DNA of 64,000 bases, from the NCBI RefSeq assembly GCF_000208745.1, contig NC_030852.1:4058210-4122209 (forward strand), given 5' to 3'. The position numbers and the translations under genes were made by a program. Within the stretch, counting starts at the first letter, position 1; each line of letters opens with the position of its first letter. Below, in pieces: positions 3,514-59,126 of the stretch. This DNA is from Theobroma cacao (taxonomy: Eukaryota > Streptophyta > Magnoliopsida > Malvales > Malvaceae). Below the pieces are notes generated by a model. That model was not told the origin of the DNA, made no database searches, and saw only the letters and a program-made list of their open reading frames with translations.

Positions 3514-4866
3514 TGTTGGTCCTATCGGAGTGCTAAAGTGGGGTGAATAGTACTAAAAAAATTTAAGCTCAGCCTTTTTTGAGTGATAGAACTTTTAACC
3601 AATTGGAGGGAGATGGACGTAAACCTCGTGGTAACTAAAAGACACCAAGTGAGGAAAGGTGTAGAGAAGTGGACAGTGCAAGACTATTTATAGTGGCTTA
3701 GTTCCTTTGACCTAAATCCATTACCTTGATCTCCCAATCAAGGATTTTCAACCCAACTTCATTATACTAGTAGAATTAATAACTTCCACTAAGTTTTTAC
3801 AAGGTGAGCTTCTAACCTAAGCTTTAATCTCTTACAATAAGCTTTAGAGTGTTTCCTACACTCTAATTTTCCAAGAAAGAGAAGAAAAAGAAGTACAACT
3901 CTGACTCTTTACATATATGAAAATATTACAACTAAATTCAAACACTTTTTTTTTTAGATTTAAAATGAAGAACAAGTGTTTTTTATGAAGGATATTTTAC
4001 TTTTTGCTCAAAATGGCTATTCTTTCTTCAAATAGACTTTCTTTGATTGTTAGAGCTTCTTTTTATACTTGGAGAGTCAGATTTTTCTGTTAGAGATAGT
4101 TCCTAGATATTGGAGACAACTCTAATGCCATTCTATCCGTTATTTTGTCTTCTGGTGCTTTAATTCAAATGGGCTGACAAAGTTTGGCTAACTAGTTACA
4201 AGCAGCTTTAACTGATTGTAGCTTCTCTATCTTGAACTACAATGCTCTCTGCCTTGATCGATTATAGGAGGCTCTAACCAATTAAGAGATCATTGTCTTC
4301 AAGCTTCTCTATTTCAGTAGACTTCCTTTAACTTGTTAACTCTCGCTTTAGTTGATTGGAGCATAACTTCCTTTAACCTTAATCGATTAACACAAGCTCT
4401 AATCAATTAAAAAATTCTTCAAATTTCCACTTCTTCATTTTGGCTCCTTCAACGGTCAACTTCACTTTAAATTTGAATTTTGATGCTTGGAGATTCTTCA
4501 AGTTTTGTGCTCTAACCGACTAACTTTATACCTTAACCGATTAGTATATATAAGTTTTCCTTTGTTCAGCACCTTCTTAATCAATTAAGCCTAATGTTAA
4601 CTGATTAACATTTTTCTGTTTTATTTTAACTTATAGCCCAACCATTCCTTAATTGATTAAAGCATTTTGATAATCAGTTACTAATGTTCTGTCTTCACAA
4701 AATCTTTCCATTTTTCACACTTTAACTGATTAGACTATCTATTACATGATCTTGCTTTCAATTATTCATTTTATTGAGGAAAGATATCCTGCACACTTAA
4801 TTAAAGAAGTTAGACATTAATGAATAAGGAATGTTTGGTTATCATAAAAAACATATGGAGTCAACA
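3514..4866 (-). repeat. 3' LTR of element C
   Basis: Runs TGTTGGTCCT...GGAGTCAACA, the same termini as the LTRs of A but longer (1353 bp) and strongly diverged. It is read on the minus strand. It carries paired palindromes of the AATCGATT type, for example centred at 4259/4279 and 4384/4404, in place of the GTCGAC type seen in A, E and F. A T-rich block right after it (4867 on) is a decayed polypurine tract on the minus strand. Confidence 0.8.
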
Positions 4867-5035: not shown

Positions 5036-5178
5036 ATATATATATATATATATATTTATATATGTATGTATATGTATATATATACATATTTATATATGTA
5101 TATATTTATACAAATTTATATATGTATATATATACATATATAAATATGTATATATATATTTATATATATGTATATAAT
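5036..5178. repeat. AT-rich microsatellite (TA/TATG/TATT)n
   Basis: About 140 bp of alternating TA with interspersed GTATATA and TTTATA units. It is nearly self-complementary throughout and lies in the 3' untranslated part of element C. The 99-codon ORF across it is low-complexity tyrosine/isoleucine sequence and is not a gene. Confidence 0.9.
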
Positions 5179-7383: not shown

Positions 7384-8605
7384 CTTGTTCACTTGCCTGT
7401 TCTTATTAAACTTCTTTTTCTTTCTCATTCTCTTCTATGGTTGACTCATTTTCCTTTATCTTTTCTTTTTGTTCAGCTTTTGGTTTTTTTCAGAATTTCC
7501 CTTCTTATGTTGATTCTTACATTCATTCTCAGGTATTTCTTTTCCAATTTCCCCTTCATGATCAAAAACAGGAACCTTAAACTATTTTGTAGCAGTTCTT
7601 TCAATGGATTGACTTAAAGCAGTGGTTGAAACTTCGGAGGTAGGAAGTTTTGTTTCCTTGGCCTAATGTAATAGGGCTTCAAGCTACTAAGTTTCTCTTC
7701 AATCTTAGTAATATTTACAGCCTGTTTAGTTAACTTCTCGTCAATTCTCATGAGTAGGTTAAACATCATTTCACCTTGAGGAAGAGGTTCACTAACTCTG
7801 CTATAAGGTGTTGAAATACTTATAGTATGAAGGGGTAGAGGTGTATTTTTGGTGATTTTTATGCATTCATTCTTCTCGATCTTGTAGCCCATTTTTAGAA
7901 CACTCCCTAAAATTATCCCCTGATCCTTGTTTCTTGTTAGATCAGATTGAAACCTTACACTTCAAACTCTTTTCTTTTTCACTAGAGTTGTAATAATGTT
8001 GCCATATGGCAAGTTTGCTTTATCTCCCAAGAAGGTTGCCCTAATTCTCTCTACTATATACTTTCCTATATTTAGTGGAATTTCATTAAATACTACATTC
8101 ATTAGCCACAAGTCCTATGCACTAATATAGCTAAAATTGTGACTCTTGCCATATAGAGTGGTTGCAATGAAATAGTGTTAGATCCTAAGTTGAGCATTCT
8201 TAATCTCGCTAGCATAGCTTTTGAAGGGAAACTTTTCTTTTCTTCCAATTACAATCTCCCAAAGATGATTGGGATCATATTTTTTTATCATTTTGAACTC
8301 TCTTACTTCAAATTCTATTTTGAGAAACTTTCCTAAATCTTGGGCATTAATTTGAAAATCTCTACCATTTAGGAACACATTCAAGCTATCTTTAGCAAAT
8401 CCTTCTTGATTTTCCAAATTCAGTTTTGTTTACAGCAATGCTAGAATAAAATTCTTTAACCAAGGAAGGGCTAAACATCTTATCCCTAAATGTACTTATA
8501 TACCTTAGTTTTAACATTTCAAAATATCATTTTAAATCCTTTTTCACTGCCAATGCATCACTAAAACTAGCTTAGTCAAAGAACTTTCCACAAGAAATTA
8601 TAACA
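7384..8605 (-). pseudogene. Extra ORF of element C, central part
   Basis: Two open pieces survive, 7614-7892 (a block with FNLLMRIDEKLT and a following coiled-coil-like helix) and 8178-8417 (block with NVFLNGRDFQ and KYDPNHLWEIV). They line up with the same blocks of the extra ORF in A, E and F. The stretch between them (near 7960-8160) holds the conserved LPYGN...I and ALL/DLWL-like blocks in decayed form. The reading frame is broken several times. At 8605 the ORF is cut by element A and resumes at 18800. Confidence 0.75.
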
Positions 8606-9706
8606 TGTTGGTCCCAAGAATATGTGCTAGAGGGGGGTGAATAGCACAAATCAGCTTTTGACAAGATGAGGAACTAATTTTCAGCACAAAGAAAATAAAA
8701 ACAGAGTAGACAATGCATAGCAATTTAGAGTGGTTCGATCCAAGACCTACATTCACTACCTTGATTATCCAACAAAGGATTTTCCCAACAATTCATTAAG
8801 AACCGATAAAATTCACAAGCTTTCACCAAGCTTTACAATGGCTTTTACAAGGCTCAACCAAAACCTTTTACACTAGTTTTTCCCGGGCTAAACTAAAACC
8901 CAACACCTAACTTTTCAAGGCTAAGTTAGAACCTTAACACCTTTAAGCAATCCTTGCTTGAAACAACCACTTAGAGTGACTCCCTCACTTTAAGAATACA
9001 AGAAGAGAAGTAAAAGAAAGTACCTATGATCGCAAGTTGATCTAAATGGTACACGGTTGAGTGCAGAATACAAATACAAAGGATGGACGTTTAACTGCAG
9101 TGAGATGAAGAGAGAATTTTTAGGTTTTTCAGCTCTTTGTGACTCAAATCCTTTCGAAACTTCCAAAAGATTGTTTCTAACTATTGGGGGACTCTTTTAT
9201 ACTTGGAGAAACATCTCTGATGGCAGTTTGACAGTTTTCTAGCCGTTGGAGATAGTTTGGAGTCGGTTTTATTTGTTACTCTGTCTTTTAGTGCAGATTT
9301 CAAACTTGTAAGTAGAATGCTCTTAGTCGATTAATCGATATCTTAGTTGACAAAGTTGTCTCTATTTTCTGCTCCCTATCTCTAGCAGTTCTGGCAGCAA
9401 GCACTTAGTCGACTAGCTCATTTCTTGGTTAACTAAGTTGGTTCTGTTTCTCAATATTATTCAACCCACCATTTCTCCAATTTGAATCTTGGCCAACTAA
9501 CATTCTTCCTTATTCAACTAATGAGATTCCTCCTTGTTAAGCAGTCATGTCTTATTATTTTTATCTCCCTTTTTCTTTTTATATATACACTTTGAAAGAT
9601 TGATTTATTAATTTCATTCATTAATTTTCCTGCACACTTAAGTAAAGGCATTAGATACAAATGAATGAGAATGTTTTATTATCATCAAAGACTAATGGAG
9701 CCAACA
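8606..9706 (-). repeat. 3' LTR of element A
   Basis: TGTTGGTCCC...GGAGCCAACA, nearly identical to 17692-18794. Contains two palindrome pairs, starting 9322/9342 and 9404/9424, each 20 bp apart. The GGGACCAACA end is the 3' terminus on the minus strand. Confidence 0.93.
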
Positions 9707-12767: not shown

Positions 12768-12801
12768 CTTAGTTGACTAAGATTCATCTTAGTCGGCCAA
12801 A
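12768..12801. promoter_or_regulatory. Paired palindromes in the pol/extra-ORF spacer of A
   Basis: CTTAGTTGACTAAG (12768-12781) and CTTAGTCGGCCAAA (12788-12801) lie exactly 20 bp apart, the pitch seen in the LTRs. The spacer 12422-12837 is otherwise noncoding. A regulatory role for the extra ORF is inference. Confidence 0.5.
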
Positions 12802-17677: not shown

Positions 17678-17689
17678 GCTCTAATACCA
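17678..17689 (-). other. Primer-binding site of element A
   Basis: TGGTATTAGAGC on the minus strand, two bases inside the 5' LTR. One base off the tRNA-iMet-type TGGTATCAGAGC site seen intact in E and F. Confidence 0.9.
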
Positions 17690-17691
17690 CT

Positions 17692-18794
17692 TGTTGGTCC
17701 TAATAATATGTGTTAGAGGGGGGGTGAATAGCACAAATCGGCTCTTAACAAGATGAGGAACTAATTTTCAGCACAAAGAAAATAAAAAAAGAGTAGACAA
17801 TACACAGCAATTTAGAGTGGTTTGGTCCAAGACCTACATCCACTACCTTGATTATCCAACCAAGGATTTTCCCAACAATTCACTAAGAATCGGTGAAATT
17901 CACAAGCTTTCACCAAGCTTTACAATGGCTTTTACAAGGCTCAGCCAAAACCTTTTACACTAGTTTTTCCTGAGCTAAACTAAAACCTAACACCTAACTT
18001 TTTAAGGCTAAGTTAGAACCTTAACACCTTCAAGCAATCCTTGCTAGAAACAACCACTTAGAATGACTCCTTCACTCTAAGAATACAAGAGGAGAAGTAA
18101 AAGAAAGTACCTATGATCACAAGTTGATCTAAATGGTATATGGTTGAGTGCAGAATATAAATACAAAGGATGGACTTTTAACTACAGTGAGGTGAAGAGA
18201 GAATTTTCAGGTTTTTCAGCTCTTTGTGACTCAAATCTCTTCCAAAACTTCCAAAAGATTGTTTCTAACTGTTGGAGGACTTTTTTATACTTAAAGATAC
18301 ATCTCTGATGGCGGTTTGAAAGTTTTCTAGCCATTGGAGATAGTTTGGAGTTGATTCTAGCCGTTACTCTATCTTTTAGTGCAGATTTCAAACTTGCAGG
18401 CAGCATGCTCTTAGTCTACTAACCGATATCTTAGTTGATAAAGTCGTCTCTGTTTTCTACTCCCTGTCTCTGGCAGTTCTGGTAGTAAGTACTTAGTCGA
18501 CTATCTCATTTCTTAGTTGACTAAGTTGGTTCTGTTTCTCAATATTCTTCAACCCGCCATTTCTCCAATTTGAATCTTGGCCAACTAACATTCTTCCTTA
18601 TTCAACTAATGAGCTTCCTTCTTGTTAAGCAGTCGTGTCTTATTATTTTTATCTCCCTCTTTCTTTTTATATATACACTTTGAAAGATTGATTTATTAAT
18701 TTCATTCATTAATTTTCCTACACACTTAAATAAAGGCATTAGATACAAATGAAAATGAATGTTTTATTATCATCAAAAACTAATGGAGCCAACA
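17692..18794 (-). repeat. 5' LTR of element A
   Basis: 1103 bp, TGTTGGTCCT...GGAGCCAACA. Aligns end to end with 8606-9706 with scattered, mostly C/T and G/A, differences. Followed at 18795 by TAATG, the target-duplication partner of TAACA at 8601. Confidence 0.93.
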
Positions 18795-19075: not shown

Positions 19076-19512
19076 GGGATTTCTTTTCCCAAGGCTTCTC
19101 AGGTTTCAGAGGAAAAAAAGGAAAGGAAAATCTAAGGGTGTTAGGTATTGATTTTCAAAGTAACTGATTCTTTAAATAGTTGAAAGATCTTTTATGAAAA
19201 GTTAATAACTGGTTACCCACGTTTTGAGTGGGTGGTTTCTCGTACCACCTGCCTAATTTTTTTTTTAAAGTTTTTCTTGCGCGATAGTTTTTCACTAGAA
19301 AAGGTCTTCTAATCGATTAGCCTATGTCTTAACCAATTACTATATTTTTGACTTAAGGCTGTCATGGTATCTGACCTTCATTAACTGATTAAAGCCACCT
19401 TTAATTGATTATGAATTTATTTACTTAGCTTAGCTTACCTATGACAGAGATGTTCTAATTGATTAGAGGGTTTTCAATTGATCAATATGACTTTTATTTC
19501 CTTTTTAATGTT
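19076..19512. promoter_or_regulatory. Spacer upstream of the extra ORF of C with paired palindromes
   Basis: Noncoding. Pairs of AATCGATT-type palindromes are centred at 19314/19334 (CTAATCGATTAG and TTAACCAATTAC) and 19386/19406 (TTAACTGATTAA and TTAATTGATTAT), each 20 bp apart. A third pair at 19460/19479 is 19 bp apart. Part of the same spacer continues after R2 at 20953-21055. Confidence 0.5.
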
Positions 19513-20952: not shown

Positions 20953-21055
20953 AGGTTTCTTTAACTAATCAAACCATTTTCTAATCAATTACATCAAGGA
21001 ATGAACAAAATCATCATGCACCATATCATAAAAAACATGATCAATTTAGTGCAAT

Positions 21056-23586: not shown

Positions 23587-23591
23587 CTTCT

Positions 23592-35129: not shown

Positions 35130-35134
35130 CTTTT

Positions 35135-35719
35135 AACTTTTTTCCCAAGTTGACATGCATCACAAATCTTGTTATTTTCAAATGATATCTTCGGTAGTCC
35201 AATGACTAAGTCTTTTCTCAAAAGCTTTGAAATTGTGTGCATACTAACATGCCCTAGTCTTCTATGCCACAACCAGCTATCACTTACATCATTGGCAATA
35301 AAGTATGATTCACTAAACTTAATTTCATTAAGAAAAATAACAAACATATTCTTATTTCTTTTGTCAATGAATGCTACTTTGTTAGTGTTAACGTCAATTA
35401 CTTAACATCCATGGAAATCAAATAATACTCTAAAACCTTTATCACAAAGTTGACTAATTCTTAACAAATTCTGTTTTAAGCCTTTAACAAATAAAACATG
35501 TTTGATTTGAGTTTGAGATGTGTTACGAATGATTCCAATTCCTTAGATAATACCCTTAGAGTCATCACCCAAGAAAACACTACCACTCTTGTTTCTATCA
35601 AGCTTGGGAAACAAATTCTCATTGCCGGTCATGTGCCTTGAACAGCCACTGTCCAAGTACCAAGGTTGCATTGTTTTTCGTTGAACTTCAAAACATTGAT
35701 TTTTTTGTCTTTGCTCAAC
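35135..35719 (-). pseudogene. pol: pol of element C, protease and pre-integrase part
   Basis: Protease with LDSGCSRHMTG near 35630-35660 and GDDSKG; then the LLVKGLK/SQLCDKGF region; then the pre-integrase domain SWLWHRRLGHVSMHT and CDACQLGKK at 35111-35347. Interrupted by D in the first codons after the pre-integrase domain. The frame has stops near 35400. Joins the in-frame UAG at 35720-35722 to gag. Confidence 0.85.
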
Positions 35720-37205: not shown

Positions 37206-37668
37206 GTCTTGAGCCAACCTTGTATCAGACCATGATAGGGTAGAGTTGTTTATGAAATTGAGTCTTTTGTACTTGTAAAGGAAATGTTTCTATTTCAAAT
37301 AATTTAATAGCTCGTGGTGACATCTCTAAAAATACTTGTTAAGACTTTAAGGGAAAAGACCCTTTAAAAAAAGAATGTCCTCATTTCAAGCATTATAATG
37401 GCTACTGATAGAACACTTGTAAAATCTTGTACACTCTTTATAAGGTGTGAGTAGTCGGTTGATTGTTGGGCTACCTCACTTGTATGTTTGTAGTGAATCA
37501 TTTAGGGCTGCCCCAATGGCCCGACAATGGCATGTCTTGGTCCTTTTGTAATTAATTTCATATTAATAAAATATTTTTCCTTTTTATGACTCGATGGTTG
37601 CATATATGGCATTTGGTATGCCTTTTGATTTTGATGCGGGTTCTCTTAATCTGATTTGTTGTTATTAT
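37206..37668 (+). mobile_element. Gypsy element G, left part of 5' LTR
   Basis: Noncoding stretch that continues after F at 57853-57965 and then meets a TGGTATCAGAGC primer site, so it is read as the first part of one LTR. A TATAAGG string near 37440 and AATAAAATATTT near 37567 suit an LTR promoter/poly(A) region. The left border is uncertain (TGATAGGG near 37231 or TGATAGAA near 37395 are possible starts). F is inserted at ATTAT (37664-37668). Confidence 0.55.
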
Positions 37669-38470
37669 TGTTGGCTCCATTAGTTTTTTGTGATAATAAA
37701 ATATTCTCATTTCATTTGTGTATAACATTTCTACTTAAGTGTGGAAGACAAAAAGTCATATGAAAATAATAAATCAACCCTTCAAATGTATATATCAAGA
37801 ATTGTGGAAATGAAGGAAAATGACTAATCAAATAAGAGGAAAGTCTTTGGTTAAATAATGAAGAATGTTGGTTGACTAAAAATCAAATTGGAGAAATGAC
37901 AGGTTAAAAAATATTGAGAAATAGAAGCAATTTAGTCAACCAAGATGTGAATTAGTAGATTAAGAAGCTATTGCCAAAATCTGGGCTTTAAGATAAAACC
38001 AACTTAGTTGACCAAGAAATGAGTTAGTCGACTAAGTGCACACTGCCAGAACTGCCAGAGATAGGAAGCAGAAAACAAAGATGACTTAGTCGACTAAGAT
38101 ATCGGTTAGTCGACTAAAAGCATTTTGCCTGCAAGTTTGAAATCTGCACTCAAAGACAGAGTAACGGCTAGAACTGACTCCCAACTGTCTCCAATAGCTA
38201 GAAAACTATCAAATTGCCATTAGAGATGTTTTTCCAAGTATAAAAGGCTCTTCCAACAGTTAAAAACGAGTTTTGGAGAGAGAATTGAAGGCTTCCAAGT
38301 GATATAAAACTGAAAAACTAGGAAATCTTCTTTGTACCTTACTGCACTTAAACGCCTATCTTTTGTAATTGTGGTTTGCACTCAACCTTGTACCATTTAG
38401 ATCAAGCTTGTGATCATAGGTACTTTCTTTTTCTTCTCTTCTTGTATTCTTAGAGTGAAGGAGTCACTCT
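37669..38470 (+). repeat. 5' LTR of F, first part
   Basis: Starts TGTTGGCTCCATTAG and ends ...GAGTCACTCT, where E is inserted. Matches 56662-57463 of the 3' LTR, where the uninterrupted sequence reads GAGTCATTCTAAG. Confidence 0.92.
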
Positions 38471-39476
38471 TGTTAGCTCCATTAGTTTTTGATGATAATA
38501 AAACATTTTCATTTATTTGTGTCTAATGCCTTTATTTAAGTGTGCAGGAAATTAATGCATAAATTTAACAAATCAATCTTTCAAAGTAAATATTAAAAGA
38601 AAAAGGTGATAAAAATAACGAGAAATGACTCCCTAACAAGGAGGAAGCTCATTAGTGAAACAAGGAAGAATGATGGTTGACTAAGTTTCAAATTGGAGAA
38701 ATAGGGGGCTGAAGAGTTTGAGAAACAAAACCAACTTAGTTGACCAAGCCAGTCGACTAAGAGCTCTCTGTTTGCAATTTGAACTAGAGCACTACAAGAC
38801 AGATTAACGGCTAGAACTCATCCTCAATTGTTTTCAACGGACATAAACTGCCAAACTGCCATCAGAGTTGTATCTTCAAGTATAAAAGGGTCTTCCAACA
38901 ATTAGAAACAAGTTTTTTAGAAGCCTTGAATGAGATTTGAGCTATAGAAGTTGAAAAACCAGAAAAGCTTCACTGCACTTGTCTGCACTTAAGCGCCTAC
39001 TCTTTGCATTTGTATTTAGCACTCAATCTTGTACCACTCAGATCAACCAGTGATCATACGTACTTTCTTTTACTACCTTTCTTGTATTCTTAGAGTGAGG
39101 AAGTCACTCTAAGGGGTTATTCAAGCTTAGGATAGCTTGATTGTTATAGGTTGTGGTTGAGCCTTGGAAAATCACTTTGAGTTTTAGTTGAGCCCGTGAA
39201 AAACTAGTGTAAAAGGTTTAGGCTGAGCTTGGTAAGCGCCATTGTAAAGCTTGGTGAAAGCTTCTGAATTTCACCAGTTACAAGTGGATTTGTGGAAAAA
39301 TCCTTGGTTGGATAATCAAGGTAGTGGATATAGGTCTTGGACCGAGCCACTTTAAATTGTTGTGCATCTTGTACTCTATTTTTATTTTCTTAAGTTTTGA
39401 AAATTAGTTTCCAATATTGTTAAGAGCCAAATTGTGCTATTCACCCCCCTCTAGCACATATTATAGGGACCAACAA
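38471..39476 (+). repeat. 5' LTR of E
   Basis: TGTTAGCTCC...GGGACCAACA. Lacks one palindrome-containing segment of about 56 bp that the 3' LTR has. Differences from the 3' LTR in the first 260 bases are roughly a dozen by eye, mostly transitions. Confidence 0.93.
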
Positions 39477-39478
39477 TT

Positions 39479-39490
39479 GGTATCAGAGCT
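39479..39490 (+). other. Primer-binding site of E
   Basis: TGGTATCAGAGC, two bases after the 5' LTR. Complementary to the 3' end of initiator tRNA-Met as in most Copia elements. Confidence 0.92.
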
Positions 39491-39534
39491 AGTTCCTTGT
39501 TTTTAAGGCTTAACATCCTTAGGGATGATCAAAA

Positions 39535-40898
39535 TGGCTCAACTAAAATCCGTAGTTGCTAAGGGAAGTCCACAAATAGACCTCCTCTGTTTGATGGCTC
39601 AAATTATTCATATTGAAGTACTAGGGTATCCATATACATTAGGGCAATAGATTATGAGATATGGAATGTCATTACCAATGGTCCTTTCATTCCAATGATT
39701 AAAAATTCGATCAATGGTAAGAAAACTCCTAAGGATAGAAATAAATGGACAGAAGCTGAAATGAGGAGAGCACAAATCAATTCTAAGGCCATGCACACTC
39801 TCATTTGTGCATTTGATTATAGAAACTATGATAAAGTGTCCATGTGCAAAAGTGCCAAAGAAATTTAGCAAAAATTAGAAGAGTTATATGGAGAAACAAC
39901 TATGGAAAAGGAATTAGAAGACAACTCTTATGGGAATCAATGCTCAACTAGCAACATGACAAATGGAGACAAGGAATCAAGTGAAGATGTATCCTCAAAT
40001 AGAATTGAATTATGCTTCATGGCTCTCGAAGAGTTAAAGGTAACTTCTTCATCATGTGAACTTTATTTATGTGCTTTCAATGAATTAGATGATGCTTTTG
40101 AGGATTTAGATTGAGTTTGAGAAAATGAATATAAAGAGCAAGAAAATGATTTCCACACTCGATGTTGAAAATGAATTTTTGATGAAAGAAAAAATTGATT
40201 TAAAAAAAGAAAATGAAAATTTGGAAAAGGATTTTAAAGCTTACCAAGAGTAAATTGATTTTTTGGAAAAAGGAAATTTTGATGTGAAAATAAAATTTGA
40301 AGATTTGTTAAATGAGAAAGTGGAAGAAAGAGCAAACTTGTGCTTGATGGCTAGAGATGATGAATCTGAGGTGTCTTTTGCTTGTGATATTTCAATTGAT
40401 GAGCTGCAAGATGAATATGAATGTCTCTATGATGAGTTTGAAAAGCTTGCATCAAAATATAAAACTTTGAAAAGAAAAGCTGCATCTCTTGAAAATGATT
40501 TGGAAAAGATAAGACATGATTTCAACTTTGTTTTTGAGCAAAGAAATTTTCTACAAATTGAATTAGAACATTTAAAAATAGATTTTGAAAATCTACAATT
40601 GGAGTTAAAAAACATAACATATGCTTTACAAGCTATAATTGCTAAAAATACCGCTCTTAAGAATTTAAGAAAAAAATCATCAAGAAAGAGCACAAATTTC
40701 ATAAGAAATGCTAATGATTTCTCCCCTAGACACTTTGTATGTGATAAAACTGGACATTTATCCTATGATTGCTTTAGAAAAAGAAATGTATAGAAAATTA
40801 GAAAAGTTTGGGTTCCAAAAGGATCCTATGTTGAAACTAACCTCCAAGGACCCATCAAAGTATGGGTACTTATTAAGAAAAATTGAAAATTTGTTTTG
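39535..40898 (+). pseudogene. gag: gag of E, rearranged and lacking the first zinc knuckle
   Basis: ATG at 39535 (MAQLKSVVAKG). The gag core is followed through frame changes up to about 39895 (GPFIP, NKWTEAE, INSKAMHTL, SAKEI). It then passes straight into a Met-Glu-Lys start segment (39902-40114, with ELCFMALEELKVTSSS) instead of the coiled coil and CYECKK knuckle present in A, C and F. The segment at 40263-40793 is an open coiled-coil region (LENDLEKIRHD, EQRNFLQIELEHLK) ending in the second knuckle (CDKTGHLSYDC; the first Cys of the usual C-x2-C is replaced). So E gag is either deleted or recombined with another long gag. It runs in frame to the stop at 40899. Confidence 0.75.
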
Positions 40899-40901
40899 TA
40901 G

Positions 40902-43900
40902 GTTGAGTTGGACTTAAAGGAGACATGTTCAAGAGCTCAACTCAAGAAGAAACAGCCTTGGTACATGGACAATGGCTGTTCACAGCACATGACAGGATAG
41001 AAATGCTATTTACTCAGCTAGATAAGAAAAATGGAGGAACCGTATCTTTTGAAGATGATTCAAAAGGCAGAATCCATGGTATAGGTACGGTTGGTAAGAA
41101 TTCACAAATTCAAATTAGTCATGTGTTGTTGGTTAAAGGATTAAAGCATAACTTACTAAGTATTAGTCAATTATGTGATAAAGGATTTAAAGTATGTTTT
41201 GATTCAACTAAGTGTGAAGTGATAGATATGAGCATAAATAAAATCTCATTCATAGGAAGAAGATTGAAGAACATGTATGTAGTTTTTCTTGAAGATCTTG
41301 AAGTAACTAGTGAAATTTGTCTTGTTGCAAATGTTGAAAATGATAACTAGTTATGGCATAGGAGATTAGGACATGTGAGCATGAATACTATGTCAAAATT
41401 AATAAAGAAAAATCTTATTGCTGGACTGCCGGAGTTAAAATTTGAGAATGATAGGATATGTGATGCTTGCCAACTAGGAAAACAAGTTAGAACATCCTTT
41501 AACATTAAGAAGATAGTATCAACATCTAGACTTCTTGAATTGTTACACATTGATCTATTTGGTCCAATAAGCACAACTAGCTTAGGAGGTAAATCTTATG
41601 ACTTTGTAATAGTTGATGACTATTTTAGATATACTTGGGTGTATTTTCTAGCTCATAAGAATGATGCTCCACAAGCATTCTTAAGTCATTGTAAGAAAGT
41701 AGAAAATGAAAAAGGACTACCCATAGTTAGCATAAGGAGTGATTATGGAGGAGAATTTGAAAATGATGAGTTTGAAAAATTTTGCAATGAAAAGGGGTTG
41801 GATCACAATTTTTCTACACCTAGAACACCCCAGCAAAATAGAGTTGTAAACAAGAAAAATCGAACCCTAAAAGAAATGGTTAGGACTATGCTATATGAGA
41901 ACAACCTACCTAAAAATCTGTGGGCTGAGGTAGTAAATACAATAGCTTATATTCTTAATAGAGTCTCAATAAGACTCTTGATTTCAAAGACTCCATATGA
42001 ACTTTATAAAGGTAAGAAACCAAATATTTCCCATCTTAGGAGTTTTGGTTGTAAGTGCTTTATATTGAACAATGGAAAACAATCCCTACGAAAGTTTGAT
42101 GCAAAGAGTGATAAAGTAATATTTTTAGGATAGCATTAAACTCAAAGGCCTATAGAGTTTTTAACAAAAGGACCTTAACCGTTGAAGAATCAATTCATGC
42201 AGTTTTTGATGAGTCAAATACTTTACAAAAAGATGTTCATGATGATGATGATGATGTAAAAATCATAGGAAAACAAATGGAGGAAATGAGCTTAGAAAAC
42301 AACAAAAATAATGAAAAAATCTCACTTAGAAGAGAAAATGAAACTCCACCTCTAGAAAATCCACAAAGAGTATAAAATCAGAATCATGATCTACCAAAGA
42401 GTTGGAGATTTGTAAGAGATCACCCATAAAACCAAATAATAGGTGACATTTCACAAGTAGTTAGAACTAGGAAAGCAACTAGAGAAACTTGTGAGTTTTC
42501 AGCTTTTATATCTCAAATTGAACCTAAAAACTTTGAAGAAGCTGAAAAAGAGGAAAGTTGGATAATGGCCATGCAAGAAGAACTTGATCAATTCACAAGG
42601 AATTGTGTATGGTCATTAGTACCAAGACCTTTAAATCATCCTATTGTTGGTACAAAATGGGTATTTAGAAATAAGGTAGATGAGCAAGGAAATGTAGTTA
42701 GAAATAAAGCTAGGCTGGTAGCAAAAGGATATAACCAAGAGGAAGGAATAGATTATGATGAAACCTTTGCTCTTGTTGCTAGGATTGAAGCCATAAGGTT
42801 GATGCTAGCTTTTGCATGTTTCATGAATTTTAAACTGTTTCAAATGGATGTAAAAAGTGCATTATTAAATGGATTAATTCAAGAGGAAGTATATGTAGAA
42901 CAACCACCTGGTTTTGAAGACTTCGAAAAATCTGATCATGTTTTCAAACTTCATAAAGCCTTGTATGGATTGAAACAAGCTCCTAGAGCTTAGTATGAGA
43001 GGCTTTCAAAATTTCTAGTTAAAAAAGGATATGATAAAGGCAGCATCGATACTACGTTGTTCATAAAAAGATATCTTAATGATTTAATTATTATGCAAAT
43101 ATATGTAGATGACATTGTATTTGGTGCAACTAATGAGGCTTTATGCAAGAACTTTGCTAAGGAAATGTAGGGTGAATTTGAGACGAGCATGATAGGAGAG
43201 TTGAAGTACTTCCTTGGTCTTCAAATTAAACAAAGTGAGAAAGGAATCTTCATCAACCAAGGAAGATACAGTCAAGATACACTCAAGAAATTCAATATGC
43301 TGAAGCTGAAATCAATTTCCACATCAATGAGTCCATCCACTATACTCGACTTAGATGAAAAAGGTAAGGATGTAGATTAAAAGCTCTATATAGGTATGAT
43401 CGACTCTCTTCTCTACTTAACAGCAAGTATACTAGATATTCAGTTCAGTGTGTGCTTGTGTGCTGGATTTCAGTCACAGCCTAAAGAATCATACCTAACA
43501 ACTGTTAAGAGAATTTTTAGATACCTCATAAACACTCAAGAACTAGGAATATGGTACTCTAGAGACTCAACTCTTAGCTTAGTTGGATATTCAGATGCTG
43601 ACTTTGCTGGCAGTAGAACTGATAGGAAAAGCACTAGTGGAACATGCCAATTTTTAGGAAGGATGCTTGTGTCTTGGTCCAACAAAAAGCAAAACTTAAT
43701 AGCACTATCTACAATAGAGGCTGAATATTTATCATTAGGTAGTTGTTGTGCACAAATCCTTTGGATCAAGCAACAATTAAAAGACTATCAAATAATTATG
43801 CATAATGTACCAATATACTGTGATAACAAAAGTGCAATCAATATAACAAAAAATCCTATGCAGCACTCTAGGACAAAGCACATTAAAATTAGACACCATT

Positions 43901-44052
43901 TTATTAGAGACCATGTAGTGAAAAATGATATTAAGATAGAATTTGTGAATACTTTACATCAATTAGTAGACATTTTTACCAAACTTCTGAGTGAAGATAG
44001 ATTCTGTGAGATTAAAAAAAAATTAGGGATGATTAGTATGAAGGAATTATAG
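40902..44052 (+). pseudogene. pol: pol of E
   Basis: Protease start at 40965 reads MDNGCSQHMTG: the catalytic DSG triad is DNG, so the protease is likely dead. A frameshift near 40990 leads to 41375-42133, which holds the pre-integrase and integrase (HIDLFGP, RSDYGGEF, NRVVNKK, in which the catalytic Glu of the usual ERK/R is Asn). A second shift near 42133 leads to RT (KWVFRNKV, QMDVKSALLNG, YVDD at 43102-43113) and RNase H (YSDADFAGS, EAEYL, CDNKSA) ending at TAG 44052. Pre-integrase WLWHRR has a TAG in place of the first Trp at 41348. Linker 42134-42560 is Glu/Asn-rich as in the sister copies. Confidence 0.9.
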
Positions 44053-44090
44053 GAAAACCTTTGGCTCTCACATAAAAAATAGAGTGTATT

Positions 44091-44121
44091 CAGTCGACTA
44101 AGGAAATCTTAGTCAACTAAG
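44091..44121. promoter_or_regulatory. Paired palindromes in the pol/extra-ORF spacer of E
   Basis: CAGTCGACTAAG and CTTAGTCAACTAAG, centres 19 bp apart, within the noncoding spacer 44053-44454. The same motif family as in the LTRs. Function unknown. Confidence 0.45.
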
Positions 44122-44454
44122 AGTGGTCTAACAACATTAAATAATAAGACTCAGTTAGTTTAGAGAGAGAGGAGTAAAATGAGGTAAAAATTGGGTTTAC
44201 CAGGTGAAAAGAGAATGATGAAAAACTGCCAAAGGTAAATAATCAATATTTTAAAGGTAATTTTTGAAATTATGAAGAAATAAAAATAGGGCTAGACTTA
44301 AGGGAAGGTTAGTAGTTTTTCTAAGAAATAACTGTTGACAACCTCTCCTTTTCTCTCCCCCGAAACTCACTACTCTAAAAATAAAAACTGAAATCTTCTT
44401 GTTTACCTCTAAAACTGACTCAAACCCTAACCATTGAAAATTTTTGGAATCAAA

Positions 44455-46387
44455 ATGGCAAGAACATCTCAGAGTAAAGAGATACTAGAGAAGAAGAAAA
44501 GGACAAGGCCAATGGAGGAAGGAACAGGAACAGAAAGTCTGAAGAAGAAACAAAAAATCATGCTTGCTTTAGTTAAAGAAATATCTGAGAAATTAAGAAA
44601 AAAGAAGCAGAAAAATGACAAAAAGAAAGATACAGAATCTCACTCCACAAAGGTACTAGTTCTTCTTCTTCAAAGTTCAGGAATAAGTTGCATGAATATA
44701 GGTTCAAAAATATCGAGAATGCACCAATCTCCTGTGGTAAATTTATTGATTGGAAGAGTTTTAAGGAAAATATAGAAATCCAAACTAGTTTATCTGCGTA
44801 CTTTGATGAACTAAAATTAAAAGGTTACAGCACCTTTAAGAATAGGTCTTATAGTCCAAGTCTGGTTAAAGAGTTCTATTCTGGCATTGCTTTGAAAGGA
44901 AAGGAATTAATAGATTCTGATAATTATATTGAAGATGGTTTGAATGTTTATCTAAATGGAAAAGAATTTGTTGTGATTACTGAAGATTTAGGAAACCTGC
45001 TGAAAATCGAATGTAAAGAAGAAGAGCATGAGCCCCTTGAAAAATATGATCCATCCTCATTGCGGGAAATCATTACTGGAAGGAAAGAAAAATGTTCTTC
45101 AAAGAGCAATTCATGTCTGATAATCAGTCCTCATATTAGAATTTTACACTATTTTATAACAGCCAACATTCAGAGTAGAAGTGGAAGCTTTAGCAACATC
45201 AATCTCCAGGACCTCTGGCTGATGGAACATGCTTTCAATAGGATATCTTTGAATTTGGGAAGATATATGATTGAAAAGATGAGAAGTGCCTATAGACTTG
45301 ATAAGGTTAATTTGCCGTATGGGAATGTGATTACATCCCTTGTACAGAAGAAAGGAATATGGGCAAAGAGGTATGATATGGACTTGGTAAAAACCAAAGA
45401 TCAAGTTATTTATTATGGCAGCTTGGTTAAAATGGGGTATGTGCTCGATGGAAAAAAGTTCATTAAAACCTCCAAAACTGGTCCAAGAAAAGAACATAAC
45501 CTACCTACTCAACCTAAAGAAGCCTCTTCCAGATTCTCAAATGAAGTAATTTTTAATTTGCTCATAAAGATTGATGGCAAGCTGACTGACCAAGGAGTAA
45601 AGCTACAAAAAAATGACGACAAAATCACTGAGTTGGAAAACAAGCTAAAGGAGAAGGAAAACATGCCATCAGAACCTGTGGCTGTAAAAAATTCTGCCAC
45701 ATCTGGCACTGCACCAGCACAACAAGGTGTTGAAGGTTCAGCAGAGCTAGCAGAAAAATCTGCTCCTCATGATGGAAGTTTTGGCATTTAAGCTGAAGGT
45801 TCCACCTACAAGTTTGCTAGTCCTATTCTGTAAACGTTGGACTCTCCCCAAGGGGTTGATCAGCCAGCCAAGACACCCTCTCCTGAACCTCAAAGTAAAA
45901 ATGATTCAGAACAAGGGACAGAAGTGGTTGGTTTAGAGACAAAGAAACAGCAGACCTCTCCTCCAAATTCAAAGGAAGTTTCCATCATGGATGTCTTCCA
46001 CCAAATGGTTAAAGATGGATAAGCTAAAAAAGACACTGTCAGGACAGAAACTCAAAAGGATGGTGGAAATGTAGGAAAAGGAAAGAAACTTGCATCAGCT
46101 CCTAGAGTAAAGGCAAAAGCAGGGAAAGCCAAAGCCACTGCAGCAGCACCAACTAAGACAAAACCACCAACCAAAGGAAAGAAGACTATGACCACCAAGA
46201 CAATTTTTCTCAAGAGAAAAAAGGCTTCCAAGTTAGTAGAGAAATCTAGACCAGCTCCAACCTCTTCTCCTCAGAGTCCAGTCCATGTTTAAGATAAGTC
46301 CTCACTAGAACCTTCCCCTAGAAAGTCATCACCTCTCCGAGAACCCTCTCCTTTTCCTCTTAATCCTCTGACACCTCAGATTACTAG
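44455..46387 (+). pseudogene. Extra ORF of E (best preserved copy)
   Basis: ATG at 44455 (MARTSQSKEILEKKK), Lys-rich basic segment, one frameshift between about 44650 and 44700, then 367 uninterrupted codons (44688-45791). Blocks in order: IENAPISCGKFIDW, FKNRSYSPSLVKEFYSGIAL, LNGKEFVVITEDLGNLLKIE, KYDPSSLREIITGRKEK, ISPHIRILHYFITANI, LQDLWLMEHAFN, LPYGNVITSLVQKKGIWAK, FNLLIKIDGKLTDQGVKLQ. An Ala/Glu/Pro linker, KEVSIMDVFHQMV, a Lys/Ala/Pro-rich basic tail with FLKRKK, and a Ser-Pro end (SPLREPSPF, then SDTSDY) follow with further stops. The long open stretch makes this a real protein family of the element. The function is unknown. A globular fold followed by a coil and a histone-H1-like tail would suit nucleic acid binding (inference). 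Confidence 0.82.
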
Positions 46388-47189
46388 TAGCCCCTTCCTT
46401 TGATGCTGACAAAAAAAGGGAGTAAAAAAGCAGGAACTAGAAAATATCTTAAAAAAAAATGTTAAGGTAAAGGAACCATCAACCTAGGAAAGGAAAGAAG
46501 GCAGAACCAGGAGCAGAAACCTAAAAAAGTAGGGGATAGGAAACAAAAATAGTCTAGGGTCAATTTCAAAATGCTTTTTGATTAACTGTTATTTGTGCCA
46601 TGGTGGCACTTAAACACTTAGTTTTAATTTTGTTGTTTACATGGCTGTATGTGAAACATGAATGTTGATATGGCTATGTTGCTTAACAGCTATAAATTGA
46701 AGTCTGCTGATATTTTGCTATTTTGGTACTTTTACTATCATGAATAAAATCTACTGATGCTATACTGATATTGATTTACACGCTAATAAATGATTTTTAA
46801 TATGGCATTGAGAATAACTTCTGTTTATAAATAGATATAGATGCTGTGTTTAGAATGTCAATTGAATCATGAAGGGAATAGATAAAATCTAATGACTGTA
46901 TGCTGTTGACAGAACTCTGCTGAATTCTTTATAAAAACTGTCAACATTCATTGCTGAAAATCATTCTAGATTTCTACACATGTATATACACATCTATAAT
47001 CTAAATTTCTACACAATGTCATTCTCTCTCTTTATGACAATAATAAAATTTGTTGGAATAAAGTGAGTAAAATATGCACACACTAAGAGTGAGCATATAT
47101 TTAAGGGGAGCAATTCCCATTTTTTTGCAGAAAACTAAAAAGAGTAAAAAGATACTATACTGTTAATCAAGGAATGTTTTGTCATCATC
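46388..47189 (+). other. Noncoding 3' region of E
   Basis: No ORF. Shares collinear blocks with 55872-56646 of F and, inverted, 9720-10500 of A. Confidence 0.6.
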
Positions 47190-47203
47190 AAAAAAGGGGA
47201 GAT
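47190..47203 (+). other. Polypurine tract of E
   Basis: AAAAAAGGGGAGAT directly before TGTTGG of the 3' LTR. Confidence 0.88.
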
Positions 47204-48265
47204 TGTTGGCTCCATTAGTTTTTGATGATAATAAAACATTCTCATTTATTTGTGTCTAATGCCTTTACTTAAGTGTGCAGGAAATTAATGCATAAATTTA
47301 ACAAATCAATCTTTTAAAGTAAATATTAAAAGACAAAGGTGATAAAAATAATGAGAAATGACTACCTAACAAGGAAGAAGCTCATTAGTGAAACAAGGAA
47401 GAATGATGGTTGACCAAGTTTTAAATTGGAGAAATGACGAGCTGAGGAGTTTGAGAAACAAAACCAACTTAGTTGATCAAGTCAGTTGACTAAGTGCTCT
47501 CTGCCAGAATCTGTAATCAGAAATAGAACCAACTTAGTCGACCAAGCCAGTCGACTAAGAGCTCTTTATCTATAATTTGAACTAGAGCACTACAAGACAG
47601 ATTAACGGCTAGAACTCATCCTCAACTATTTTCAACGGACATAAACTACCAAACTGCCATCAGAGTTACATTTTCAAGTATAAAAGGGTCTTCCAACAAT
47701 TAGAAACAAGTTTTTTAGAAGCCTTGAATGAGATTTGAGTTATAGAAAGTTGAAAAACCAGAAAAGCTTCATTGCACTTGTCTGCACTTAATGCCTACTC
47801 TTTGCATTTGTATTTAGCACTCAATCTTGTACCACTCAAATCAACCAATGATCATAGGTATTTTCTTTTACTACCTTTCTTGTATTCTTAGAGTAAAGAA
47901 GTCACTTTAAGGGGTTATTCAAGCTTGGGATAGCTTGATTGTTGTAGGTTGTGGTTGAGCCTTGAAAAATCACTTTGGGTTTTAGTTGAGCCCATAAAAA
48001 ACTAGTGTAAAAGGTTTTGACTGAGTATGGTAGAAGCCATTATAAAGCTTGGTGAAAGCTTGTGAATTACTAGTGGATTTGTGGAAAAATCCTTGTTTGG
48101 ATAATCAAGGTAGTAGATGTAGGTCTTAGACCGAATCACTCTAAATTGTTGTACATCTTATACTCTGTTTTTATTTTCTTAAGTTCTGAAAATTAGTTTC
48201 CAATATTGTTAAGAGCCAAATTGTGCTATTCACCCCCCCTTTAGCATATATTATAGGGACCAACA
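47204..48265 (+). repeat. 3' LTR of E
   Basis: TGTTGGCTCC...GGGACCAACA, 1062 bp. Carries two palindrome-containing blocks in tandem (near 47466-47500 and 47526-47558) where the 5' LTR has one. Confidence 0.93.
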
Positions 48266-48270
48266 ACTCT

Positions 48271-48659
48271 AAGTGGTTGTTTCAAGCTAAGTTTGCTTGA
48301 ATGTGTTAAGGTTCTAACTTAGCCTTGAAAAGTTAGGTGTTGGGTTTTAGTTTAGCCCGTGAAAAACTAGTGTAAAAGTTTTTGGCTGAGCTTGTTAAAA
48401 GCCATTGTAAAGCTTGGTGAATGCTTGTAAATTTCACCTGTTCTAATGGATTGTTTGAAAAATCCTTGGTTGGATAATCAAGATAATGGATGTAGGTTTA
48501 GGATTGAACCACTTTAAATTCTACTGTATTGTTTACTCTATTTTTGTTTTATTTTTTTTCTTTCATTCATCTTACATTTGTCTACACTTAGAGATAATTT
48601 TTGAAAGAACCAAATTTGTGTTATTTACCCCCCTCTAGCACATATTATTGGGACTAACA
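48271..48659 (+). repeat. 5' LTR of F, second part
   Basis: Resumes at AAGTGGTTG after the ACTCT copy and ends GGGACTAACA. Matches 57464-57852. Confidence 0.92.
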
Positions 48660-48661
48660 AG

Positions 48662-53515: not shown

Positions 53516-53913
53516 GAAAAATCTTGGCTCATGCACATAAAACAGAATGCATTTAGTCAACTAAGAGTGCTCTATTAGTCTTAAATAATAAGACTCAAAC
53601 AAACAAATGAAGAAAGAATAAAACAATGTGTACCGGACAATAAAGAAAAGCAAAAAAACTACCTAGGAGAATTACCAAAAGTTTAGAGGGAATTTTAAAA
53701 TTTTTAAGCAAAAGAAGTAAGGCAATTTTTAAGGGGGAGGCGGACGATTTTCCAAGTGAAATTAAAACTACTGACAATTCTTTTTCAACATTTTCTCTCC
53801 CTTAAAACTAAATATCAGAAATTGAAACTCAGTCTATCTATATTTTCACCTCTGAAACTGACTCACCCAAAACCAAAACCCTCGAATCCTAATCATAAAT
53901 CTTCAAAATTGAA

Positions 53914-56646: not shown

Positions 56647-56661
56647 AAAAAAGAGAGAGAT
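56647..56661 (+). other. Polypurine tract of F
   Basis: AAAAAAGAGAGAGAT immediately before TGTTGG; one or two G to A changes from the E tract. Confidence 0.8.
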
Positions 56662-57852
56662 TGTTGGCTCTATTAGTTTTTGATGATAATAAAACATTTC
56701 CATTTCATTTGTATCTAACATTTCTACTGAAGTATGTAGGACAAAAAGTCATATGAAAATAATAAATCAACCCTTCAAATGTATATATCAAGAATTATGG
56801 AAATGAAGGAAAATGACTGATCAAATAAGAGGAAAGTCTTTGGTTAAATAATGAAAAATGTTAGTTGACTAAAATTCAAATTGAAAAAATAATGGGCTAA
56901 AAATATTCAGAAACAGAAGCAACTTAGTCGACCAAGATGTGAGTTAGTCGATTAAAAAGCTACTGTCAAAATCTGAACTTCAAGATAGAACCAACTTAGT
57001 CGACCAAGAAATGAGTTAGTCGACTAAGTGCACATTACTAGAACTATTAGAGACAAGAAGCAGAAAACAGAGACGACTTAGTCGATTAAGATATCGGATA
57101 GTCGACTAAGAGCATTCTACTTGCAAGTTTGAAATCTGCACTAAAAGACAGAGTAACGGATAGAACCGACTCCTAACTGTCTCCAACGGCTAAAAAACTG
57201 TCAAACTGCCATCAGAGATGTTTCTCAAAGTATAAAAGGATCTTCCAACAGTTAAAAATAAGTTTTTGAGAGAGAATTGAAGGCTTCCAAGTGATATAAA
57301 GTTGAAAAACCAGAAAATCTTCTTTGCACCTTACTGCACTTAAACGCCCATCTTTTGTAATTGTGATCTACACTCAACCTTGTACCATTTAGATCAACTT
57401 TGTGATCATAGGTACTTTCTTTTACTTCTCTTCTTGTATTCTTAGAGTGAGGGAGTCATTCTAAGTTGTTGTTTCAAGCTTGGTTTGCTTGAATGTGTTA
57501 AAGTTCTAACTTAGCCTTGAAAAGTTAGGTATTGGATTTTAATTTAGCCCATGAAAAACTAGTGTAAAAGGTTTTGACTGAACCTGTTAAAAGCCATTGT
57601 AAAGCTTGGTGAAAGCTTGTGAATTTCACCGGTTCTTAGTGGATTGTTTAAAAAATCCTTAGTTGGATAATCAAGGTAGTGGATGTAGGTCTTGAATCGA
57701 ACCACTCTAAATTCTACTGTCTTGTTTACTCTATTTTTGTTTTATTTTCTTTCTTTCATTCATCTTACATTTGTCTACACTTAGAGACAATTTTTGAAAG
57801 AACCAAATTTGTGCTATTCACCCTCCTCTAGCACATATTATTGGGACCAATA
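56662..57852 (+). repeat. 3' LTR of F
   Basis: 1191 bp, TGTTGGCTCT...GGGACCAATA (terminal CA changed to TA). Followed by ATTAT at 57853-57857. Confidence 0.93.
56923..57110. promoter_or_regulatory. Three palindrome pairs in the U3 region of F
   Basis: CTTAGTCGACCAAG/GTTAGTCGATTAAA (start 56923/56943), CTTAGTCGACCAAG/GTTAGTCGACTAAG (56995/57015) and CTTAGTCGATTAAG/GATAGTCGACTAAG (57077/57097). Within each pair the 14-mers are separated by 6 bp, so centres are 20 bp apart. Pairs repeat at 72 and 82 bp. Position upstream of a likely TATA (TATAAAAGG near 57231) suggests dimeric protein-binding sites. Confidence 0.7.
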
Positions 57853-57965
57853 ATTATTAATGTTGGAGCAGATATAACCAAGTATGGATTGACTTATGTG
57901 GAAGCGTCCACTCAAGTGCTACGTGAACTATCACATATTTAAGCGAAAGAATATAGTTCATGACA
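57853..57965 (+). mobile_element. Gypsy element G, right end of 5' LTR
   Basis: Continues the LTR begun before F (ATTAT duplication shared) and ends ...TTCATGACA, two bases before the primer site at 57968-57979 (TGGTATCAGAGC). Confidence 0.65.
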
Positions 57966-57967
57966 AT

Positions 57968-57979
57968 TGGTATCAGAGC
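57968..57979 (+). other. Primer-binding site of G
   Basis: TGGTATCAGAGC followed by ACGAGCG. Confidence 0.85.
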
Positions 57980-58008
57980 ACGAGCGAGCATGCAACCTAA
58001 AGTGTATA

Positions 58009-59126
58009 ATGGTGACCACGCAGAGTGCATCAGAGGAACATCAAAGGATTAATGAGCTAGAGGCAGCGATGGCTGTAATAAAAGCTTAGATGTATCGTGT
58101 GAACGAAGAGATGAAATTGAGACAATCCAGTAGGAACTGTCTGAGGTGATTAATACCCTGAGTGATAAGACCAAGGATGCATTGAGTACTCTCCGAGGCG
58201 AGATTGGAGAATTGAAAGCTCAGGTAAATCTTTTGGTTATTACTACAGGGATTGCTAGTGGAAGTTTAAAAGATAGAGGGAAAAGGGCTAAAGTGTTAGA
58301 ACTCAAGCGATATAAAAGGGTCCAAGATGCTAAAGAGTTGGAGAACTTCTTTTTTGATATGGGATAATATTTTTGAGCTGTGCGCATGAAGTTGGAGGAG
58401 GACAAAGTGGCGATGGCTTCAAGGTATCTTGTTGGGGAAGCAAAGTTGTGGTGGCATTCCAAATTTATCGATGGTAAGTGTCATATCAACACTTGGATAG
58501 ACCTAAAGTAGGAATTGAAGAACCAATTTTTTCTTGAGAATGTTGAATATATGGCGTGACGAAAGTTAATGGAGTTCTCACAAATAGAATTAGTGCAAGA
58601 GTTCGAGAGAAACTTTGCTATTTTAATACTAGATATCAAGGATATTATTGAAAAAGATATATTATTTTATTTCCTTGAGGGTTTTAAACCATAAGCAAGG
58701 ACAGAGTTACAGCGACAAAACGTACAAGTTGTGACTTCAACAATGGAGGCTGTTGAGCGCCTTACTGATTATAGTAAAAACTCTAACAAAAGAAAAGACC
58801 CTCCATTTGAGACCAGTAGCTCTAGCTCAAACAGTGGGACAAAAGTTTTGAGAGTAAATAGACCTTCAAGTAGAAGAGGTGATAGAATACCACTTGCTAG
58901 AGATTTACCCCAACTGAGAACAAACAAGCCATGGAACTTCAAGCCACCACCACCGATATCCTGTTTTCTATGTAAGGAACCTCATCGAGTATCTAACTGT
59001 CCTCATTGAGCAACTCTCAGTACGATATGTATTGCTAATGTTGAGACACCTCCACCCCACACCACAATCGAAAAAGCCGAGGAAGAGCCAACACGAATGG
59101 GTTCTATTCGTTTCCTTAGCGTCTGA
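58009..59126 (+). pseudogene. gag: gag of Gypsy element G
   Basis: ATG at 58009 (MVTTQSASEEHQ). Coiled-coil start, LRGEIGELKAQVNLL, then the Retrotrans_gag domain (DAKELENFFFDMG, LVGEAKLWWHSKF, QEFERNF), and a zinc knuckle C-x2-C-x4-H-x4-C (CFLCKEPHRVSNC) near 58965-59005, ending at TGA 59124-59126. In-frame stops near 58088, 58365, 58510, 58556, 58692 and 59007 and a shift near 58140 break it. It resembles plant chromovirus-type Gypsy gags. No protease, RT or second LTR follows: G is cut off after gag. Confidence 0.8.

Follow-up and report, generated by a model that had tools for sequence, protein, structure and literature searches.

Results

Sirevirus elements at the locus

The window, a stretch of 64,000 nucleotides of Theobroma cacao DNA at 4058210-4122209 of contig C3, contains four elements, designated E1 to E4, which are Ty1/copia Sireviruses. 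Their LTRs carry short palindromic boxes arranged in pairs, and the distance between the two box centres of a pair is called the pitch below.

E1 3′ LTR (A LTR of the preliminary description): 8603..9706, minus strand, from self-BLAST; box pairs 9323-9354 and 9405-9436, pitch 20
E1 5′ LTR: 17689..18794, minus strand, from self-BLAST; box pairs 18411-18442 and 18493-18524, pitch 20
E2 5′ LTR, part one: 37667..38470, plus strand, from self-BLAST; remainder at 48268-48660, with E3 in between
E2 5′ LTR box pairs: 37932-37963, 38004-38035 and 38086-38117, plus strand, pitch 20
E2 3′ LTR (F LTR of the preliminary description): 56660..57853, plus strand, from self-BLAST against 37667-38470 and 48268-48660
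E3 5′ LTR: 38470-39476, plus strand; a single box pair, 38736-38760, pitch 13
E3 3′ LTR: 47203..48266, plus strand, from self-BLAST; box pairs 47469-47493 and 47534-47558, pitch 13
E4 3′ LTR, of a diverged Sirevirus: 3514..4866, minus strand; boxes of the TTAATCGATTAA type, TATA at 4067

E3 (38470-48266) is a Sirevirus inserted into the 5′ LTR of E2, which it cuts in two. E4 is an older element whose pol region (21076-23591, minus strand) has about 71% identity to that of E1 by self-comparison, and its pieces would, judging by their order and strand, belong to one element. Pieces of E1, E2 and E3 contain the Pfam domains Retrotran_gag_2, gag_pre-integrs, rve and RVT_2, the set of a copia-type element; the copia assignment comes from these domains, and the Sirevirus lineage was assigned from sequence signatures. 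The Sirevirus 5′ LTR junction, CA/A(T or G)TGG followed by TATCAGAGC, is exact in E2 and E3 and has one change in E1, and the polyC integrase signal occurs, with small variation, at all six E1-E3 LTR ends. Both the AT/TG attachment and the flanking inverted repeat that go with the Sirevirus polypurine tract are present. The terminal tract itself reads AAGGGGAG in E1 and E3, one letter off AGGGGGAG, and has decayed in E2; the exact octamer AGGGGGAG occurs at 9823 and 53731. Compared with the available text of PMC2829016, the junctions, primer site, polyC signal and TATA are of the Sirevirus type, and the polypurine tract appears nearly so. A search for relatives in viral_contigs and genome_contigs returned none, and no record of the cacao family named Gaucho turned up in the literature searched.

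Several other repeats lie nearby. Direct repeats of 1.7 kb with 87% identity (23594-25283 and 33459-35135) probably represent the LTRs of a further element that has inserted into the pol region of E4, and a 1.44-kb direct repeat with 82% identity (5941-7383 and 19512-20952) has one copy between E4 pol and the internal box cluster of E4. Directly to the right of the F LTR, at 57854-58500, there begins what by eye looks like a further retroelement; its TGGTATCAGAGC primer site lies at 57968 and a gag-like stretch comes next. About 140 bp at 5036-5177 are self-complementary, with 84-85% identity to their own reverse complement.

Palindromic boxes in the U3 regions

The preliminary description had reported three palindrome pairs in the F LTR, with 20 bp within pairs and 72 and 82 bp between them, and two pairs in the A LTR (20 and 82 bp). 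These coordinates are confirmed. The F box centres are at 56929.5/56949.5, 57001.5/57021.5 and 57083.5/57103.5, and those of the A LTR at 9328.5/9348.5 and 9410.5/9430.5. A mechanical scan added a weak pair upstream in the F LTR.

F pair U1: 56924-56935 and 56944-56955, unstranded, pitch 20; inside a 72-bp insertion that E1 and E3 lack
F pair U2: 56996-57007 and 57016-57027, unstranded, pitch 20; second box perfect
F pair U3: 57078-57089 and 57098-57109, unstranded, pitch 20
Weak upstream F pair: 56840..56872, unstranded, centres 56845.5/56866.5, 21 bp, from the mechanical scan

The boxes had been described as 14-bp palindromes around GTCGAC. Boxes resembling TTAGTCGACTAA are real, but their dyads are imperfect: a perfect 12-bp dyad is found in only one of the six F boxes, the other five having one mismatched pair, and the four boxes of the A LTR differ from TTAGTCGACTAA at one to three positions. 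The window has 20 matches to TTAGTCGACTAA with at most one mismatch, every one of them within a Sirevirus element; dinucleotide shuffling (200 rounds) gave a mean of 0.10 and a maximum of 2. The F LTR alone has seven such boxes (0.004 in 1000 shuffles). When the window was scanned for palindromes of any motif, even distances dominated, apparently from simple AT repeats.

The box core is GTCGAC or ATCGAT and lacks the CGG-CCG signature of the RM boxes of Sireviruses. Positions -2.5/+2.5 are G/C in 25 of 31 E1-E3 boxes versus A/T in 19 of 21 E4 boxes, a symmetric change. On the LTR strand, the E1-E3 boxes have A at +1.5, +4.5 and +5.5 in 31/31, and their left half is variable. The boxes are therefore directional despite their symmetry, although the near-invariance of the right half is not independent evidence because these copies are related. 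Box A is no more complementary to box B within a pair than across pairs, and no co-variation was found within pairs. Over the box clusters G+C is 0.38-0.42; CpG O/E is 1.09 in the F boxes (window 0.30) and 0.45-0.58 in four other copies. Judged by these two measures, the clusters are not the CpG islands described for RM boxes. Identity between E1 and E2 shows no clear excess in the boxes over the flanks (0.81-0.90 versus 0.85-0.88), and against E3 the boxes are better conserved than the flanks (39/47 versus 135/200; 36/47 versus 141/201).

Position relative to the TATA box and the extra ORF

The F boxes begin about 180-200 bp into the LTR and end 127.5 bp before the TATA. Among cacao loci with AGTATAAAA, the TATA lies 126.5-127.5 bp past the last box in 43 of 57. 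Each of the four elements also has one or more boxes between pol and the extra ORF, at 240-356 bp upstream of the ATG.

F LTR TATA box: 57231..57237, plus strand, 127.5 bp past the last box centre
E1 box pair between pol and extra ORF (ATG 12421): 12769..12800, minus strand, pitch 20
E2 single box: 53553..53564, plus strand, upstream of the extra ORF (ATG 53914)
E3 box pair: 44090..44120, plus strand, pitch 19, upstream of the extra ORF (ATG 44455)
E4 internal box cluster: 19309..19485, minus strand, three pairs of pitch 20, 20 and 19, before the extra ORF (ATG 19075)
E4 pair directly after pol: 20961..20992, minus strand, pitch 20 when paired by hand and 24 in the mechanical scan, which took an overlapping match
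E3 extra ORF, open piece: 44619..45791, plus strand, with a Transposase_32 domain (putative plant transposon protein) and a weak ATHILA ORF-1 match

This is the layout of RM boxes, in which palindromic repeats occupy the upper LTR before the TATA and further copies precede the env-like gene. The open piece of the E3 extra ORF had 27 database matches, 25 of them labelled Theobroma cacao.

Spacing and helical phase in the window

Spacing was analysed on one LTR plus the internal region of each element, comprising 45 boxes with at most two mismatches in 4,126 bp. Exactly 20 bp separates 11 of 36 adjacent boxes, and random placement gave a mean of 0.54 and a maximum of 5 in 20,000 trials. The 3′ LTR of E4 has six pairs in 4254-4681, four of pitch 20 and two of pitch 21, with 2 of the 12 boxes found only at three mismatches. 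Among E4 adjacent distances, 5/17 are 20 bp and 7/17 are 19-21 bp (P<5e-5 each), and the probability that any single distance would be as frequent is 0.00015. The flanks of the E4 pairs are unrelated to one another (mean z 0.13 over 15 comparisons).

When all distances up to 130 bp were taken from the five clusters with at least four boxes, the best period in a scan of 6-16 bp was 10.4, with a mean cosine of 0.71 for the curated and 0.67 for the mechanical box set. It stayed at 10.4-10.5 without the within-pair distances. E4 alone reached a cosine of 0.76, and none of 1500 random placements was as high. Ten inter-pair distances that were left after related ones had been dropped by hand gave 0.73 at 10.5 (P 0.00025). 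Window matches outside the box clusters had no phase (cosine -0.02 on 53 distances and 0.02 on 604), nor had E3. These tests are sensitive to the mismatch threshold and are weaker at one mismatch (E1, P 0.06 and 0.13; E4, P 0.06-0.09 on four to five distances) and at three, where neither the internal cluster of E4 (P 0.13) nor E2 stripped of its within-pair distances (P 0.10) kept the phase. A motif-permutation control was weak: only eight permuted motifs had enough matches, several of them matching the same boxes, and TTARTYRAYTAA ranked third of eight in E4 and first of eight in the pooled set.

Spacing across the cacao genome

The preliminary description had proposed looking for an excess of 20-bp spacing across LTR copies, the absence of which would count against its operator reading; the excess is present genome-wide. 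Counts were made in one genome of 324.85 Mb in 431 contigs. Pairs of TAGTCGAC at pitch 12-42, counted by strand, number 605+616 = 1,221, and the reversed-pattern control gave 3+7 = 10. At exactly 21 bp there are 152 pairs (control 0), and at 22-42 bp there are 27, the range into which all 10 control matches fall. The 100 matches listed for pitch 12-42 correspond to 80 places, with 58 at 20 bp, 12 at 21, 7 at 13, 2 at 22 and 1 at 37. Among these matches listed, the 58 pitch-20 places form two linker groups, of 56 and 2, and are therefore mostly related copies; the 12 pitch-21 places form eight groups. For pairs at exactly 21 bp, 34 linkers hand-picked among 100 matches listed fall into 13 groups. 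For TAATCGATT, 58+60 = 118 pairs were counted (control 2+0). Its 100 matches listed represent 58 distinct places, 23 of them at 20 bp, 19 at 21 and 6 at 41-42, and among these matches listed there are eight linker groups at pitch 20 and ten at pitch 21 (42 places, 18 groups).

A second sample was drawn blind to the boxes. Genome-wide there are 428 matches to one form of the polyC signal (control 0), of which the 100 LTRs listed first, on contigs C1 and C2, were each taken together with 1.5 kb upstream. At least three boxes are present in 87 of the 100 and none in 7, and the boxes concentrate 700-1000 bp upstream of the anchor. Adjacent distances peak at 20 (119), 21 (50), 13 (53), 52-53 (102) and 62-64 bp (84). 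The classes are exclusive: a 19-21-bp pair is found in 58 LTRs, a 13-bp pair (1.24 turns) in 28, and both in none. Pooled, the 100 LTRs give a cosine of 0.46 at 10.5. Taking the box-richest locus from each of 24 single-linkage groups, the best period is 10.4 with a cosine of 0.61 (random maximum 0.17 in 500 placements); restricted to groups with one or two members, the cosine is 0.60. These representatives include 11 with a 19-21-bp pair, 2 with a 13-bp pair and 8 with no box or one. Dinucleotide shuffles of the 24 U3s (20 rounds) left a mean of 19.1 boxes versus 125 real ones, with a cosine of 0.03. Outside the U3 cluster, the 100 loci give 0.26 on 37 distances at two mismatches and 0.06 on 559 at three. 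Box distances thus lie near whole helical turns, as in phased operator arrays, in the window and in the sampled LTRs, but not in E3 or the 13-bp class.

Spacers compared within the same locus in 13 representatives have z<=3 in 42 of 49 pairs and z>3 in 7. Between groups, 88 of 654 spacer comparisons exceed z 3, so the LTR groups are not fully independent. In a further LTR group, L031-L042, CATAGTCGACTAT boxes are spaced at 21 bp, with 51, 70 and 72 bp among the steps; the terminal part of the LTR is common to some of its members and the window elements.

Discussion

A cooperating host factor as the likeliest reading

The palindromes are best read as Sirevirus RM boxes in phased pairs, which would be bound by a dimeric host factor that acts cooperatively and drives the promoter of the LTR; we lean towards this reading, including its predicted binder, at slightly better than even confidence. 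In U3 the boxes would serve as an array for upstream regulation, whose last box lies about 127 bp ahead of the TATA in the window elements. Each is a dyad with a TCGA-type core, such as a homodimer may recognise. The spacing statistics show the boxes paired two helical turns apart (20-21 bp), with further distances clustering near whole turns, which places most sites on one side of the DNA. A dimeric, oligomerising nuclear factor of the host could then bind cooperatively and activate LTR transcription, and the smaller array that precedes the extra ORF may play the same role for that gene. In the alignments, units are gained and lost, with a 72-bp step in F and a 65-bp step between the E3 LTRs, and selection may keep the phase despite this turnover. 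Dimeric operators on one helix face had been suggested from the F and A LTRs. That suggestion gains from the genome-wide recurrence of the two-turn spacing and from its phase to the helical repeat, but it does not hold universally, the E3-type class being spaced at 13 bp. Two-turn pairing can be dispensed with, 13-bp pairs being present in 28 of 100 LTRs, none of which also has a pair of the other class. The arrays resemble Tnt1, Tto1 and ONSEN, plant copia elements with repeated host-factor sites in U3, although the motifs differ. The symmetry of Tnt1 box I is mentioned in the available text of PMC2829016.

Alternative explanations

The regular distances could be a by-product of copying, in which a two-box module was duplicated head to tail and 20, 52 and 72 bp recur by descent without function. 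Part of the material fits. In the U3 alignment the first F pair and its spacer form a 72-bp insertion that has no counterpart in E1 or E3 and is probably a duplication; the two 72-bp units of F align with a score of 30 (shuffled maximum 8.5), the E3 LTRs have two pairs in one and one in the other, and the pitch-20 TAGTCGAC places among the matches listed come mostly from one linker group. The unit alignment is driven by the boxes, however, and the 30-bp right flanks alone align no better than shuffles. Homologous spacers make up only 7 of 49 within-locus pairs, 6 of them in loci L130 and L063, the flanks of the E4 pairs are unrelated, and pitches of 20-21 bp are common to many unrelated linkers. 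Distances such as 31, 41, 63 and 83 bp are likewise near whole turns, and the phase persists in the ten inter-pair distances cleared of related ones. Recent tandem duplication, which the preliminary description had named as a possible cause, is therefore likely for the F 72-bp step and can account for the 56 of 58 listed pitch-20 places in one group, but as a whole explanation it is rejected for E4 and most sampled loci, and we regard a purely functionless origin as unlikely. A nucleosome or DNA-bending signal, in which a nucleosome over U3 takes its rotational setting from phased TTA/TAA steps with a CG centre and the boxes have no dedicated reader protein, would suit the period of 10.4-10.5 and the frequent steps of 20-21 plus 52-53 bp, which sum to 72-74 bp. 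About 72-74 bp is half the length of a nucleosome. Such a signal predicts neither a 12-bp dyad with a defined core nor its symmetric change between classes, nor the 13-bp class, and matches in the AT-rich background are unphased in the window and only slightly phased around the 100 LTRs. It seems decidedly unlikely.

The palindromes might instead form hairpins at the 3′ end of the element RNA and serve as a small-RNA trigger or in packaging, as proposed for the palindrome-rich LTRs of maize Sireviruses, where small-RNA hotspots coincide with the palindrome regions (available text of PMC5311732 and PMC10760457). The F segment 56915-57120 does fold better than 200 shuffles (z -4.94). Yet the older stretch of E4 (4250-4545) has kept pitch and phase with no excess fold (z 0.09), the boxes of a pair are no better matched to each other than to those of other pairs, and hairpins do not require phased distances from pair to pair; a rule of helical spacing speaks for a protein that docks on the DNA duplex, and we consider hairpins very unlikely. 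The preliminary description had left the binder as either a host factor or the extra protein of the element. The extra-ORF product, with its Transposase_32 domain, could bind its own operator set and regulate itself, and the boxes do stand upstream of its ATG in 4/4 elements. However, the envelope-like or extra gene is absent in 4 of 13 RM-bearing Sireviruses, which still have LTR boxes (available text of PMC2829016), and a host factor is therefore the likelier binder. Pfam found no domain named DNA-binding in the extra-ORF piece, and its predicted fold is uninformative (pLDDT 38.8); the chance that this protein is the binder seems remote. Box variants with TTGAC might also be read as W-boxes, although CpG decay would also explain the CA or TG at the centre of 11 of 31 E1-E3 boxes, and the GAC core is missing from most E4 boxes.

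A possible conserved grammar with turnover of boxes

Beyond the cooperating host factor itself, it may be, tentatively and with less than even confidence, that Sirevirus LTRs have kept a grammar of dyads two turns apart and pairs at whole turns while box and spacers were replaced. Box and predicted dimeric binder may have changed together into the GTCGAC and ATCGAT classes, the 13-bp class would mark a switch of the cooperating complex, and the array before the extra ORF could put that gene under independent control.

Relation to known Sirevirus palindromes

RM boxes were described in 2010 as palindromic repeats with at least eight copies per element, located in the upper LTR half before a mid-LTR TATA, with additional copies directly upstream of the envelope-like gene; a common binder was not found there (Bousios et al. 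2010, available text of PMC2829016). Sirevirus palindromes are thus already known, and the helical spacing rule is apparently new: two-turn pairs and 10.4-bp phasing do not appear in the available text of PMC2829016, where ‘periodic’ and ‘helix’ are absent and ‘helical’ and ‘spacing’ occur only in references, and no earlier report was found in the literature searched, which did not cover the 2016 maize Sirevirus paper. The rule offers a simple test towards the factor that may switch on an abundant group of plant retrotransposons. The maize arrays (CACCGGAC..GTCCGGTG) are likewise palindrome clusters in the LTR cis-region with highly variable sequence (Bousios et al. 2016 via PMC5311732 and PMC10760457), but in the available text of the two citing papers they have another motif and are treated as secondary structure and small-RNA targets.

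As far as the available text of PMC2829016 goes, the cacao boxes are like RM boxes in their U3 position before the TATA and in the extra copies before the extra ORF, and unlike them in their low G+C and in having no CGG-CCG, a signature absent from one of the 13 published RMs, that of Tnd-1. In the same text, the Vitis RM CGGTCGACCG has a GTCGAC core, as do the cacao E1-E3 boxes, and the Tnd-1 RM ACAATCGATTGT has AATCGATT in common with the boxes of E4.
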